Source of the DNA: an uncultured bacterium
GTDB lineage: Bacteria; Planctomycetota; UBA1135; GCA-002748355
Assembly (NCBI GenBank): GCA_937858895.1
Contig: CALLZN010000263.1
Span: 1-32,220 of the forward strand
Reading direction: 5' to 3'
Length of the DNA stretch: 32,220 bases
The notes beneath the pieces are model-generated. The model was not told the DNA's origin. It ran no database searches and saw only the letters and a program-made list of their open reading frames with translations. Shown here piece after piece: positions 24,315 to 29,104 of this stretch; position 1 is the first letter of the stretch; every line of letters begins with the position of its first letter. A program made the translations under genes and the position numbers.

Positions 24315-24380
24315 TGCGGCGTGCAGCAACGCGCCGATAGCAACGAACGAAACGACAGACCCCCCACTTCCGAGACAGCC

Positions 24381-25298
24381 ATGACCGAACGCGTCGACCA
24401 AATTCTCTCTTGGTACGAATCCGACTCACCAGGCGTGCTCGCCAAGCTGCGCACGATGCTCATGCATGGCCGCCTCGGCGGCAGCGGCAAGATGGTCATC
24501 CTGCCCGTCGACCAAGGTTTCGAGCACGGACCGGCGCGCTCGTTCGCGAAGAACCCCGCGGGCTACGACCCGCACTACCACTTCAAGCTCGCGATCGAGT
24601 CCGGCTGCAACGCCTACGCGGCGCCACTCGGCTTCCTCGAGCAGGGCGCTCGCACCTTTGCTGGCCGCATCCCGACCATCCTGAAGCTCAACAACTCGGA
24701 CAGCCTCGTCTCGACGAAGGACCCTTGTCCGGCCGTGACGGCTTCGATCGAGGACGCCTTGCGCCTCGGTTGCTCGGCCATCGGTTACACGATTTATCCG
24801 GGCAGCATCGAGCGCAACCTCATGTACGAGAACTTGCGCATCCTCATCCAGGAAGCAAAGGAAGTCGGCTTGCCGACCGTGCTCTGGGCTTATCCGCGTG
24901 GAACAGCCCTGACCAAAGTCGGGGAGACCGCGACCGACGTCGTGGCTTACGCAGCGCAGATCTCGGCCCAGCTCGGTGCCCACATCATCAAGGTGAAGCC
25001 ACCGACCGCTGACCTCGAGCAGGCTGAGGCCAAGAAGGTCTACGAGAGCGAGAAGATCGCGGTCGGCACGCTCGCCGAGCGTATCCGCCACGTCGTTCAG
25101 TCAGCCTTCGACGGCAAGCGCATCGTGATCTTCTCGGGCGGGCCCGCGAAGGGCACGGACGAGGTCCTCGAAGAAGTCCGGGCGCTCGCCGCCGGCGGAA
25201 GCTTCGGTTCGATCATGGGCCGCAACGCCTTCCAGCGCCCGATGAAGGACGCGATCACGCTGCTCCACCAGATCATGGACATCTACGCCGACGCGTGA
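24381..25298 (+). CDS. fbaB: Class I fructose-bisphosphate aldolase (FbaB type)
   Basis: Cleaves fructose-1,6-bisphosphate to dihydroxyacetone phosphate and glyceraldehyde-3-phosphate through a Lys Schiff base. The 305-residue protein belongs to the archaeal/DhnA-like class I family. ILPVDQGFEHGPARSF binds substrate, and GFLEQGARTFAG and IGYTIYPGSIERN follow. The Schiff-base Lys is expected in AHIIKVKPPTAD. The phosphate-binding end has IFSGGPAKGTDE and GSIMGRNAFQRP. ATG at 24381 is the likely start; a GTG at 24321 would add 20 low-complexity residues. No ribosome-binding site is obvious before either. It stands alone between the membrane peptidase (66 bp upstream) and the HEAT-like gene (133 bp downstream). 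Confidence 0.93.
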   Translation: MTERVDQILSWYESDSPGVLAKLRTMLMHGRLGGSGKMVILPVDQGFEHGPARSFAKNPAGYDPHYHFKLAIESGCNAYAAPLGFLEQGARTFAGRIPTILKLNNSDSLVSTKDPCPAVTASIEDALRLGCSAIGYTIYPGSIERNLMYENLRILIQEAKEVGLPTVLWAYPRGTALTKVGETATDVVAYAAQISAQLGAHIIKVKPPTADLEQAEAKKVYESEKIAVGTLAERIRHVVQSAFDGKRIVIFSGGPAKGTDEVLEEVRALAAGGSFGSIMGRNAFQRPMKDAITLLHQIMDIYADA

Positions 25299-25431: not shown

Positions 25432-27408
25432 ATGTCCGAGCACCACCCAGCAAGCACGCAAGTCGACCTGAGCGCCGCGACGACTTCGGACCAGACCGAA
25501 GCCGCGCTCGCCGTTGCGCTCACGCTCGTCGACTACCTCAAGGCCTACGCGCTGTACCCAGCGGGTAATCATCGCGTCGCGACGAACTGCCAGCGCGTCG
25601 TCGACCAGATCCGGCAAGCCGTCGCCGCTGATCCCGCGCTGCCGGACCATCGCTTCGTCTTTCAAGGCGATGAGTATGTCACCGGCGAAATCCGCATCTC
25701 GTGCCAAAGCGATCCGCGTCTCGAGTGGTTGCGCGAACGCTTCGACCGCTGCGCGCTCGCGGGCCTGGCCTTCTCGCCGGACACCGAAGTCGATGCTTTG
25801 GCCGTCTTCGCTCAGCGCTTCTTCGACATCGTGCGCGAGCGACCCAAGAACCCTCAGTTCGACGACTACTGGGAAGAGTCGATCTTCGGAATCGCGCCGC
25901 TCGAACGTCGCTACGACGGTCAGTTCTCCGGCGACGCAGACTCGAACCGTGCAGACATAGCGGAGTGGCTGCTCCAAGGTTCCGACAGCAGCAAGCTCTT
26001 GACCGAGATGCTGCGACGCAGCTCGCGCATCGCCAACCGCATCGAGAGCATCGAAGGCCGCCTTCGACAACTCGCGGACGAGCGCGAGAAGTCCGGCACG
26101 AGCTACGAAGGAGTCGAGGTCGATGTCCTCGAGCAAGTCCTCAAGACCCTGCCCCTCGAGGTGCTCGGCGACGGGCCGACGATCGTCAAGATCGTCGACG
26201 AGGTGCTCACGAAGCTGGAAGAGAGCATCGCCAACAGCGCGCTCGAGACCGGCACACTCGAGCTCGGCAAGCTCTTGGGCTCGATCAGCCAGCGCTTCTT
26301 CGCGTTGAAAGGTGATCCGAATGCGCCCAACACGAAGCCGAAGAAGCACGAGAAAGAAGCGAAACGAGAACTCGGTCATGCCGGCGACGAGCGCATCACG
26401 GACGACACTTCGCTGCTCTTCGATGAACTCGCGACCCTGCCACCCTGGGAGGGCATCGAGCTGGGCGAAGAGAGCGAGGAACAGCTCGGTGAGATCTACG
26501 CGGTCTACCTCACCTTCCTCGTTCACGTCGACGAGCCGCACGCGCTCACGCGGATTCGCCGCCTCTTGCGCGGCCTGCTGTCGCGCGAAGAGGCGATCTT
26601 CCCCGCCGTCGCCGCCAACTACTTGACGTGGTGCGAGTCACAAGCCGAAGAGCATGGTGATTGGACGGCCTTCGATCGCTTCGTCGACCTCGTCGAAGAA
26701 GCCGGTTGCCCGGAGCTGCTGACCGAACTCGGCCAACTCGAACTCGGCAGCCTGGTCCAGCGCTTCCCGCGCACCTTCTTCGCCTTCGTCGACGCGACGG
26801 ATCCTCGTCGCAATCCGCGGGACGCCGAGAAGCTCTACCAGTTGCTCGAGCTCCTCGACCCGGACCGCATCACCGCCGCCGAAAAGGACCTGCGCGATGG
26901 GCTCCAGAAGAAAGACCGCGCCGAGAAGATCTTGGCCGTGGCTCGACCGCGCATCATGCCCTTCCTCCAGATGCTGCTCACACAGGACCGTGAGCGGTGG
27001 ATGCCCATGGCTGCCAAGTTCATCTCGGAGCTCCCGACGCAGCTTTCCGAGGCGGATGTCTTCCGCTTGCTAACGCCGGACGAGCTGCCCCCCGATTGGA
27101 CGGCGCTCTATCTGCGAGCGGTCGTGGACTCGAGCGCGCGGACGACTTTGCGGGCCAGGACGGCAGAACTCGTAGCCGACTACCTCGACACGACGGCCTT
27201 CGATCCTGCGATGGTCGACGCGCGGCTCTGGGGGATTCAGCTGCTGGGTCGCCTGCCCTGCTCGAGCTCCACGAAGGCCCTTCATCGCATCCTGAGTCGC
27301 AAGAAGCTCTTCGGCATGAAGAAGGAAGATCCGGTCGTTCGCGAAGCGGCGGAGATCTCGCTCAAATCGATCGAGGCGGCGTTGTCGCCAGGAGGTCGCC
27401 GTGTGTGA
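25432..27408 (+). CDS. Large helical-repeat (HEAT-like) protein with N-terminal domain shared with the HD-GYP neighbour
   Basis: A 658-residue cytosolic protein, almost entirely helical by its heptad-like Leu/Ala pattern. It ends in helical pairs resembling HEAT repeats (VDARLWGIQLLGRLPCSSSTKALHRILSR, then DPVVREAAEISLKSIEAAL). Residues ~18-130 form a separate domain with LKAYALYPAGNHRV, then FVFQGDEYVTGEIRIS and GLAFSPDTEVDALAVFAQRF. The next gene's N-terminus has a similar succession. ATG at 25432 is the first credible start. The last 8 bp overlap the HD-GYP gene, whose ribosome-binding site lies inside this gene. I infer a scaffold or signal partner of the HD-GYP protein. HEAT is a structural guess and the biochemical role is unknown. 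Confidence 0.82.
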   Translation: MSEHHPASTQVDLSAATTSDQTEAALAVALTLVDYLKAYALYPAGNHRVATNCQRVVDQIRQAVAADPALPDHRFVFQGDEYVTGEIRISCQSDPRLEWLRERFDRCALAGLAFSPDTEVDALAVFAQRFFDIVRERPKNPQFDDYWEESIFGIAPLERRYDGQFSGDADSNRADIAEWLLQGSDSSKLLTEMLRRSSRIANRIESIEGRLRQLADEREKSGTSYEGVEVDVLEQVLKTLPLEVLGDGPTIVKIVDEVLTKLEESIANSALETGTLELGKLLGSISQRFFALKGDPNAPNTKPKKHEKEAKRELGHAGDERITDDTSLLFDELATLPPWEGIELGEESEEQLGEIYAVYLTFLVHVDEPHALTRIRRLLRGLLSREEAIFPAVAANYLTWCESQAEEHGDWTAFDRFVDLVEEAGCPELLTELGQLELGSLVQRFPRTFFAFVDATDPRRNPRDAEKLYQLLELLDPDRITAAEKDLRDGLQKKDRAEKILAVARPRIMPFLQMLLTQDRERWMPMAAKFISELPTQLSEADVFRLLTPDELPPDWTALYLRAVVDSSARTTLRARTAELVADYLDTTAFDPAMVDARLWGIQLLGRLPCSSSTKALHRILSRKKLFGMKKEDPVVREAAEISLKSIEAALSPGGRRV

Positions 27409-28819
27409 TGTCGGCTATGACCAGGAAGCTCTCGGCGGTGTCGATGGCTTCCTCGACGAACTCATCGTTGCGCTCGTCAATGGCCGGGTTTACTCGGAGA
27501 CGCACCCACGCCTTCGCGACACGCTGAGCGGTCTCGTCAAGCGCCTCGAGCAACACGCTGCGTCAGCTGCAGGCTCCTCGATCGAAGTCGGCGTCGTTGA
27601 CGGCTACCTCATCCACGACGGAAGGCCGTTGATGTCGGCGACTTTGTCCGCCCAACGGCTCATCGACCCGATCACGCGCGCAGGCAGTGGTGGGCTGATC
27701 TTCGACCGCGGCGCGAGCTTCGAAGACTTCGTCGCGATCGTCCGCCTTCTCAACGCGCGGCCGCAGGAGCAGGGCAAGGACTGGTCCGAGGCCAACACGA
27801 TCCTGGAGAAGAGTGGCTGTCGACGCATACGCTTGCTGCCACCGCTGAGCCTCGCGAGCTGCGCGAAGCGCACCGAGGGCTTCGGTGACTCACAGCGCGT
27901 CGAGACCGAGCTGGAGCTGCCGCTCGAGATCTACCAGGGAGTCATCAATCTTCTACAGAGCGTGAGTATCGCTGTCTGCCGCGGCAAGAGCTTCAAGCTC
28001 GACACCGTGCGCGGCGAGATCGAGCGCATCATGAAGCGCATCGAAGTCGACCCGGCATCGATGCTCGAGGTCGCTCGTTACGAACAGTACGACGCCTTCA
28101 CGTTCGGCCATTCGGTCCGCGTGTGCTTCCTCGCCGTCATCTTCGCGAAGGCGCTAACACCCGACCTGCGCTTGCAAGAACGCGTCGGACTCGCCGGCCT
28201 CCTGCACGACATCGGCAAGGCGAAGGTCCCCTTCGAGATCGTGCACGCGCCCGGCCGCCTCAGCGAAGAAGAGAAGCTCGAGATGCAGCTCCACACGGTG
28301 CACGGCGCGCGCACGCTGCTCGACGTCGGCGACGCCGACCCTGTCGCGGTCGCGACGGCGTTCTCCCATCACAAGACGATGGACGATCGTGGCTATCCGA
28401 AGACGGGTTTCTGGGCACCGCGCAGCCCGATGACCAAGATCGTCAAGATCTGCGATGTCTACGAAGCACTGACCGCCGTGCGTCCGTACAAGCCTGCGAT
28501 GTCACCGGTTCGCGCCTATCGCATCATGCTCTCGATGCGCAACCACTTCGACCTGCCGCTCCTACGTCGCTTCATCGAGACCAATGGCATACACCCGGTT
28601 GGCACCGAGGTGCGGCTCAACACCGGCGAGTTCGCTGAGGTCGTGAAGCAGACCGACGACCTACATCGACCGATCGTGCTCTTGACCAAGGATCGCGAAG
28701 GCAACGAGCTCGACGTCCTCGACCGCACACGCTTCGACTTGAGCGGTGACGCAAGGACCGAGCGTTGGGTCGCGCTCGAGCACGAACCCGCGCTCGAGGT
28801 CGTCGGCGCCGAGGCCTGA
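27401..28819 (+). CDS. HD-GYP domain protein, probable cyclic-di-GMP phosphodiesterase
   Basis: A 472-residue cytosolic protein. HD-GYP proteins hydrolyse cyclic-di-GMP or related signals. Residues ~10-130 are an accessory domain (LVNGRVYSETHPRLRDTL, VVDGYLIHDGRPLMS, GLIFDRGASFEDFVAIV) that parallels the N-terminus of the preceding protein. The HD-GYP core runs from ~225: FTFGHSVRV, LLHDIGKAKVP (His269, Asp270), HTVHGARTL, SHHKTMDDRGYP (GYP 331-333), KICDVYEALTAVRPYK. All main metal ligands and the GYP triplet are present, so it should be active. The start is GTG at 27401, fixed by AGGAGGT 4 nt upstream inside the previous gene. There is no receiver domain, and input presumably comes through the N-terminal domain or the HEAT-like partner. 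Confidence 0.92.
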   Translation: MCDVGYDQEALGGVDGFLDELIVALVNGRVYSETHPRLRDTLSGLVKRLEQHAASAAGSSIEVGVVDGYLIHDGRPLMSATLSAQRLIDPITRAGSGGLIFDRGASFEDFVAIVRLLNARPQEQGKDWSEANTILEKSGCRRIRLLPPLSLASCAKRTEGFGDSQRVETELELPLEIYQGVINLLQSVSIAVCRGKSFKLDTVRGEIERIMKRIEVDPASMLEVARYEQYDAFTFGHSVRVCFLAVIFAKALTPDLRLQERVGLAGLLHDIGKAKVPFEIVHAPGRLSEEEKLEMQLHTVHGARTLLDVGDADPVAVATAFSHHKTMDDRGYPKTGFWAPRSPMTKIVKICDVYEALTAVRPYKPAMSPVRAYRIMLSMRNHFDLPLLRRFIETNGIHPVGTEVRLNTGEFAEVVKQTDDLHRPIVLLTKDREGNELDVLDRTRFDLSGDARTERWVALEHEPALEVVGAEA

Positions 28820-29028: not shown

Positions 29029-29104
29029 GGGCCGTTAACTCAGTTGGTAGAGTGCGACTATCACAAGGTCGAAGTCACTGGTTCGAGTCCAGTACGGCCC
29101 ACCA
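29029..29104 (+). tRNA. tRNA-Val (anticodon CAC)
   Basis: A complete cloverleaf can be folded. The acceptor is GGGCCGT with ACGGCCC, and the D arm is ACTC/GAGT. The anticodon stem is CGACT/GGTCG around the 7-nt loop ATCACAA, giving anticodon CAC at 29062-29064 (reads GUG, valine). The T arm is ACTGG/CCAGT with loop TTCGAGT. Discriminator A is followed by an encoded CCA. Promoter upstream and hairpin downstream suggest a single-gene unit. Confidence 0.96.

Follow-up and report, generated by a model that had tools for sequence, protein, structure and literature searches.

HD-GYP enzymes are common, and the inputs of many of them are unknown. Among the described members, RpfG joins a receiver domain (REC) to HD-GYP, and PmGH a GAF domain. 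The metal-ligand pattern of the catalytic domain is given in the available text of PMC4159591 as H, HD, H, HH, D, and a Y/F subgroup is suspected there of being binuclear. According to the accessible part of PMC13090378, DvhD of Desulfovibrio vulgaris is an HD-GYP receptor for cyclic dimeric guanosine monophosphate (c-di-GMP) that forms a dimer, and a stalk helix connects this dimer with the regulatory domain lying upstream; the available portion of PMC12943098 presents DUF3391 (PF11871) as an uncharacterised domain that precedes HD-GYP and is fused to SpoIIE as well, and describes it as four to five antiparallel strands accompanied by one or two helices. Here we describe a gene pair in a window of 32,220 nucleotides, that is, the whole stretch of DNA analysed (contig C263, CALLZN010000263.1), which comes from a draft planctomycetotal genome of 5.77 Mb that is 87.55% complete. 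The first gene (25432..27408, + strand) encodes P0001, a HEAT-like scaffold protein of 658 residues delineated from its open reading frame (ORF) and family conservation, with zero Pfam matches; the second (27401..28819, + strand, GTG start) encodes P0002, an HD-GYP phosphodiesterase of 472 residues delineated from its ORF and an HD_5 match. Both proteins begin with a copy of the same domain, hereafter the N-domain, and with moderate confidence we read the pair as a two-gene c-di-GMP phosphodiesterase module in which the paralogous N-domains would pair, allowing the HEAT protein to control or position the enzyme.

A domain shared by the two proteins

P0001 and P0002 start with homologous copies of one N-terminal domain of ~135 residues, which spans residues 18–158 in P0001 (25483..25905, + strand; hhalign and predicted model m3fc74b430953, order α-α-β-β-β-α-β-α-α-β) and residues 14–147 in P0002 (27440..27841, + strand; AlphaFold2 model m9efef2c2160c and hhalign). 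This could not be sustained from the two sequences alone, because pairwise BLASTP of the N-termini gave no significant match (best 13.9 bits, E 1.3), and family profiles were therefore needed. A survey of relatives, covering 61 genomes with that of the window included, found matches to P0001 in 12 and to P0002 in 58, many of the latter being generic HD-GYPs. In reciprocal hidden Markov model (HMM) searches with family profiles made from these matches, the HEAT-family profile matched the HD-GYP N-terminus with a best E of 1e-13 and the HD-GYP profile matched the HEAT N-terminus with a best E of 2e-11 (1.3e-5 for P0001 itself). Profile-profile comparison of the N-termini, set beforehand as the test of homology, was significant: hhalign aligned residues 25–170 of the P0001 family (28 sequences) with residues 10–155 of the P0002 family (30 sequences) over 106 columns, with a probability of 98.5, an E of 1.9e-15 and a sequence identity of ~11%. 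The three blocks that an earlier note on this DNA had paired by eye fall in the same register, with LKAYALYPAGNHRV of P0001 opposite LVNGRVYSETHPRL of P0002, FQGDEYVTGEIRIS opposite VDGYLIHDGRPLMS, and GLAFSPDTEVDALAVFAQRF opposite GLIFDRGASFEDFVAIVRLL. One stretch of locus L116 (9827-11710), whose start had been wrongly assigned, was left out of the N-domain alignments, including the one behind hhalign, and the partners of L088 (frameshift-split) and L110 (contig-cut) were left out of alignment A2.

Sliding windows elsewhere in P0001 and P0002 gave hhalign E-values of at least 0.011, barring two windows that overlap the domain; reversed profiles gave 0.024 and 0.1, and 30 column shuffles at least 0.065. 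Separate comparisons of HEAT-type and HD-GYP-type N-domains yielded E 5.1e-20 for 47 Planctomycetota pairs (a set that includes L093 and L116, whose records are labelled 'bacterium'), E 4.6e-29 for 24 pairs of two other phyla, and E 1.3e-20 and 7e-20 across the two sets. Convergence, with nothing more than helical starts and a β stretch aligned by eye, would fit the silent BLASTP and the low identity, but we consider it extremely improbable in view of profile E-values from 1e-15 to 1e-29 against profile controls at E ≥ 0.02, of the reciprocal HMM matches and of the same predicted topology on both sides.

That topology is seen in the structure predictions of the two N-termini. The AlphaFold2 model of the P0002 N-domain, built from 30 sequences, has a predicted local distance difference test score (pLDDT) of 81–98 by ten-residue block over residues 11–150, with helices at 14–30, 36–55, 82–93, 107–118 and 128–137 and strands at 60–66, 69–72, 75–78, 98–102 and 143–146. 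In the full-length model of P0001 (28 sequences, mean pLDDT 80.6), helices are predicted at 18–41, 47–66, 95–106, 120–136 and 143–146 and strands at 73–78, 81–84, 87–90, 109–114 and 154–158. Compared by element order, both N-domains run helix-helix-three strands-helix-strand-helix-helix-strand, an identical succession.

The domain has no entry in the databases searched. Pfam (E ≤ 1) and NCBIfam assigned zero families to P0001 and left the P0002 N-terminus uncovered, and a Pfam scan of 65 N-domains at E ≤ 1 showed no family for the domain among the matches listed (25 of 27 families). PF11871 was considered as an identity for the N-domain and rejected, as it was found neither in P0002 (E ≤ 1) nor among these listed matches. 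A search for DUF3391 in the host genome gave no match, as did the same search in the control genomes, and it has no bearing on this. Structure searches of the PDB with the N-domain revealed no clear relative (E no better than 0.87 with Foldseek, Z up to 3.7 with VIA-align), and the lack of relatives in these lists is not proof of a new fold. Two further sets of matches were judged to be due to chance: seven weak matches of the 65-row profile in a PDB sequence search, the best of which (E 0.0023) spans 33 residues of a cytochrome, and 17 plasmid records that the P0002 N-domain matched in tblastn at E ≥ 5e-4, almost all of them labelled as dioxygenases.

In a quick tree of 142 N-domains from 71 pairs, the HEAT type and the HD-GYP type cluster separately. 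The labels need 7 changes on this tree vs a mean of 47.7 when shuffled (0 of 500 shuffles as low), and the starred branches force only one change, so that the two types may go back to a single ancient split. Both types carry the motif Y-P-x-x-[HN]-P-R-V between the first two helices. Its tyrosine, following helix 1, is present in 97% of the HEAT type and 90% of the HD-GYP type, and four residues past it H or N occurs in 92% of the former and H in 98% of the latter; a P-L-x-G-A-S stretch is conserved in HD-GYP-type N-domains only.

Gene order and spacing across three phyla

The overlap of the two ORFs that the earlier note had stated is real; they lie on the same strand (+) and share 8 nucleotides (nt). 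An AGGAGG ribosome-binding site for P0002, read from the sequence, lies within the 3′ end of P0001 (27390..27395, + strand), five bases from the GTG at 27401. Adjacency of the pair in other genomes, for which the earlier note had asked a survey, proves to be conserved. Among loci L087–L116, mostly metagenome-assembled genomes of Planctomycetota (L091, L093, L103 and L116 being labelled 'bacterium'), a HEAT-family ORF directly precedes the N-domain HD-GYP gene in 30/30 assessable cases, counted with a profile whose alignment included most of these proteins. Assessable means that upstream sequence is present; L114 ends at a contig edge, the L110 partner is cut by the contig end and the L088 partner is frameshifted. 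An earlier profile rested on the window plus 14 loci from relatives, many of these being the same contigs; with it, 28 of the 30 partners were recovered at E ≤ 2.2e-32, while the two in L116 escaped detection. L116 holds two HEAT plus HD-GYP units in succession on one contig (4765-11710).

Altogether 71 pairs were collected, 24 of them in two phyla other than Planctomycetota. The set omits 18 locus ids that duplicate other loci; contig ends, excess distance, or values below the match or length thresholds account for the absence of L160, L163, L176, L226, L242 and one of two pairs at L187. The distance from the end of the partner ORF to the start of the enzyme's N-domain is 0–100 nt in 66/71 pairs, while the N-domain overlaps the partner ORF in four and a gap of 536 nt separates the two in one, where the partner is frameshifted.

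The other phyla were surveyed with A6, the 65-row N-domain profile. A6 matches occur in at least 94 of 294 Planctomycetota genomes, a lower bound because the scoring was confined to 13 candidates in the majority of them. In the second phylum, that of L117 (a Deltaproteobacteria record), 64/148 genomes have matches; the 150 matches listed include at least 49 tandem pairs on one strand, distributed over 41 genomes, and 52 of the 150 belong to no pair. Matches were also found in five of the nine genomes of a third, small phylum. In the example pairs from the other phyla the HD-less protein comes first and the HD-GYP second; gene order and close spacing are kept across three phyla.

No third conserved gene is evident around the pair across L087–L120 and the window, in a screen blurred by antisense ORFs. 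In the window the pair is preceded by a DeoC/LacD-family aldolase gene (24321-25298) and followed by a transfer RNA gene (tRNA-Val, CAC; 29029-29104), the tRNA being all that an Rfam scan around the pair returned.

The catalytic protein

P0002 had been called a complete HD-GYP phosphodiesterase, and its catalytic domain (residues 231–384; 28091..28552, + strand), defined by Pfam and conserved residues, agrees with that description. It matches HD_5 (PF13487) with 78.8 bits, against a curated cut-off of 27.2, and E 5e-22, and it has the metal ligands H237, H269, D270, H298, H323, H324 and D352 and the GYP motif G331-Y332-P333. The ligands are invariant in 13 aligned sequences, and all seven are retained in 69 of the 71 paired HD-GYPs, in which the motif is kept as G in 69, Y in 67 and P in 70. 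The position equivalent to PmGH E185 holds Y in 38/71 and F in 27/71, which places the paired enzymes in the Y/F subgroup, and they are probably binuclear, judging from sequence. Judged by its family, P0002 likely has c-di-GMP as substrate; the host genome contains six GGDEF and four HD_5 matches. Elsewhere in the same genome (contig C111; L259 1363-2523), a 386-residue protein has a histidine-kinase-like ORF as its neighbour. Its residues 46–269 align with the profile of the HD-GYP family (E 4.5e-7); it has no HD match and a weak N-domain match (E 3.6e-6), and it may be a degenerate paralogue.

The N-domain and the HD-GYP domain are linked by a long helix (residues 164–193; 27890..27979, + strand; model pLDDT about 50–82), which follows a weak loop in the model and, by analogy, is a possible dimerisation stalk. 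Such a helix bears on the proposal that the N-domain is a homodimerisation module only, with HD-GYP dimers and HEAT dimers forming apart and adjacency reflecting a common regulon. In the accessible part of PMC13090378 a characterised HD-GYP protein dimerises via the helix preceding its catalytic domain, and P0002 has a predicted helix of this kind; furthermore, HD-GYPs with the N-domain and no partner exist. Homodimerisation alone nevertheless fails to account for a HEAT partner that, in three phyla, sits next to the enzyme and has retained the same domain, and we regard it as improbable.

The helical protein

The rest of P0001 (residues 173–651; 25948..27384, + strand) is all-helical in the predicted model, with low confidence at about 290–345. 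The earlier note had seen a long helical repeat here, and this holds as a predicted α-solenoid, although P0001 has no Pfam match of its own. VIA-align superimposed residues 344–656 on ARM/HEAT solenoids, with a best Z of 8.9 and a root-mean-square deviation of 1.7 over 68 residues (deoxyhypusine hydroxylase), and listed many ARM/HEAT chains, including importins, catenin and AP-2, at Z 7–9, scores that would allow for a common arrangement; the best Foldseek E for the helical part was 0.022. Among nine HEAT partners scanned in the second phylum, HEAT_2 scores exceed the cut-off in seven, match it exactly in one and fall short of it in one, and the partners of this phylum match HEAT_2 (down to 9e-36) and HEAT_PBS. 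A HEAT/ARM-type α-solenoid is the prediction for P0001, which would have drifted below Pfam detection.

The N-domain in other architectures

Twenty N-domain proteins without HD were scanned as a sample. Ten carry SpoIIE, eight of these together with a receiver domain; six show HEAT_2 (one below the cut-off), of which two also have DUF4388 (one below the cut-off) and one of those two PilZ; the remaining four matched no family in the scan. At L151, L152, L154, L155, L157, L166, L167, L169, L173 and L174 the N-domain forms the start of SpoIIE-type PP2C phosphatases, most of which have the receiver in between. A 1454-residue ORF at L177 (1476-5837) combines PilZ, the N-domain, HEAT_2 and a weak DUF4388. 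The supposition of a module without a receiver domain is right for P0001 and P0002, neither of which has a Response_reg match in Pfam at E ≤ 1, and does not hold in general, given the receiver-SpoIIE proteins of other Planctomycetota.

Four large proteins have the architecture GGDEF-AAA_16-N-domain-HEAT_2 (L239 553-4920, L240 500-4771, L250 604-4224 and L189 296-4495). Their AAA_16 is a STAND-like ATPase, one or two N-domain copies are present and the HEAT part is C-terminal; they come from Planctomycetota and the second phylum. The combination of N-domain and HEAT is thus connected with c-di-GMP synthesis inside single proteins and with HD-GYP through neighbouring genes. A broader view, which we put forward tentatively and at somewhat under an even chance, is that the N-domain, present in three or more bacterial phyla, is a new domain for signalling and assembly, and that one scaffold family governs both the making and the breaking of c-di-GMP. 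N-domain plus HEAT would then serve as a hub, joined to a diguanylate cyclase (GGDEF-AAA-N-domain-HEAT) in some proteins and in others encoded beside an HD-GYP enzyme with a copy of its own, and would act by heterotypic pairing of N-domains.

The range of effectors joined to the N-domain (HD-GYP, SpoIIE phosphatase, GGDEF-ATPase-HEAT) is what one would expect of a ligand or stress sensor, with both proteins reading the same small molecule on their own and the HEAT protein and the enzyme as two outputs that never touch. The occurrence of the domain without a HEAT partner and the conservation of Y and H in the loop that joins helix 1 to helix 2 point the same way. The constant adjacency and tight spacing, however, suggest stoichiometric or assembly needs beyond a common input, and the two N-domain types remain distinct, P-L-x-G-A-S being confined to one of them. 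We hold the sensor explanation to be unlikely, if less so than homodimerisation alone.

Discussion

The reading of the pair as a two-gene phosphodiesterase module has a computed part, which comprises the homology, the common predicted topology, the gene order and spacing, the separate clustering of the N-domains and the intact catalytic residues. In the proposed mechanism the N-domains would pair heterotypically, an ancient homodimer domain having turned into a heterodimer, and the HEAT protein would dock on the HD-GYP enzyme through them. The HEAT solenoid could bind a partner or supply a cellular address, and this binding might alter or localise the phosphodiesterase, the signal reaching the HD-GYP dimer through helix 164–193 by analogy with the DvhD stalk.

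Several points weigh against this module. Fourteen HD-GYPs (L066, L068, L073–L075, L077–L080 and L082–L086) have the N-domain and no HEAT-family ORF upstream; pairing is therefore not obligatory, and the N-domain can work without a HEAT partner. Its presence on SpoIIE proteins would suit a sensor or a homodimer domain, P0001 shows no HEAT or ARM match in Pfam at E ≤ 1, and the N-domain tree is a quick, unrooted one of 151 columns with long branches. The unpaired HD-GYPs sometimes occur in genomes that also hold a pair. Three ORFs upstream of them (L075, L080 and L086) had no match in a Pfam scan, which makes a drifted partner conceivable.

An N-domain that is widespread and has a conserved scaffold partner gives an experimental entry to the control of c-di-GMP in Planctomycetota and a second large phylum, and annotators could define a family for proteins now labelled hypothetical, or labelled only HEAT or HD-GYP. 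A search of the open-access literature found no description of the pair or of the N-domain; an earlier description elsewhere is possible.

Compared with the known systems, P0002 resembles RpfG and PmGH in its catalytic domain, with the H..HD..H..HH..D ligands and GYP as given in the available text of PMC4159591; in contrast to both, it has a regulatory domain other than REC or GAF, one that belongs to no Pfam family, and a copy of that domain sits on the adjacent HEAT protein. Like DUF3391, as far as the available portion of its description goes, the N-domain precedes HD-GYP and heads SpoIIE proteins; unlike DUF3391, whose fold is taken from that description, its models open with two long helices. 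DvhD differs from the paired HD-GYPs in having dCache and PAS and no metal ligands, according to the accessible part of PMC13090378. The second-phylum partners are akin to HEAT_2/PBS-lyase HEAT-repeat proteins in matching HEAT_2 and HEAT_PBS, and differ from them in that the partners bear the N-domain and directly precede an HD-GYP gene. The enzyme is thus a member of a known family, whereas the N-domain is uncatalogued and its pairing points to an undescribed signalling unit.

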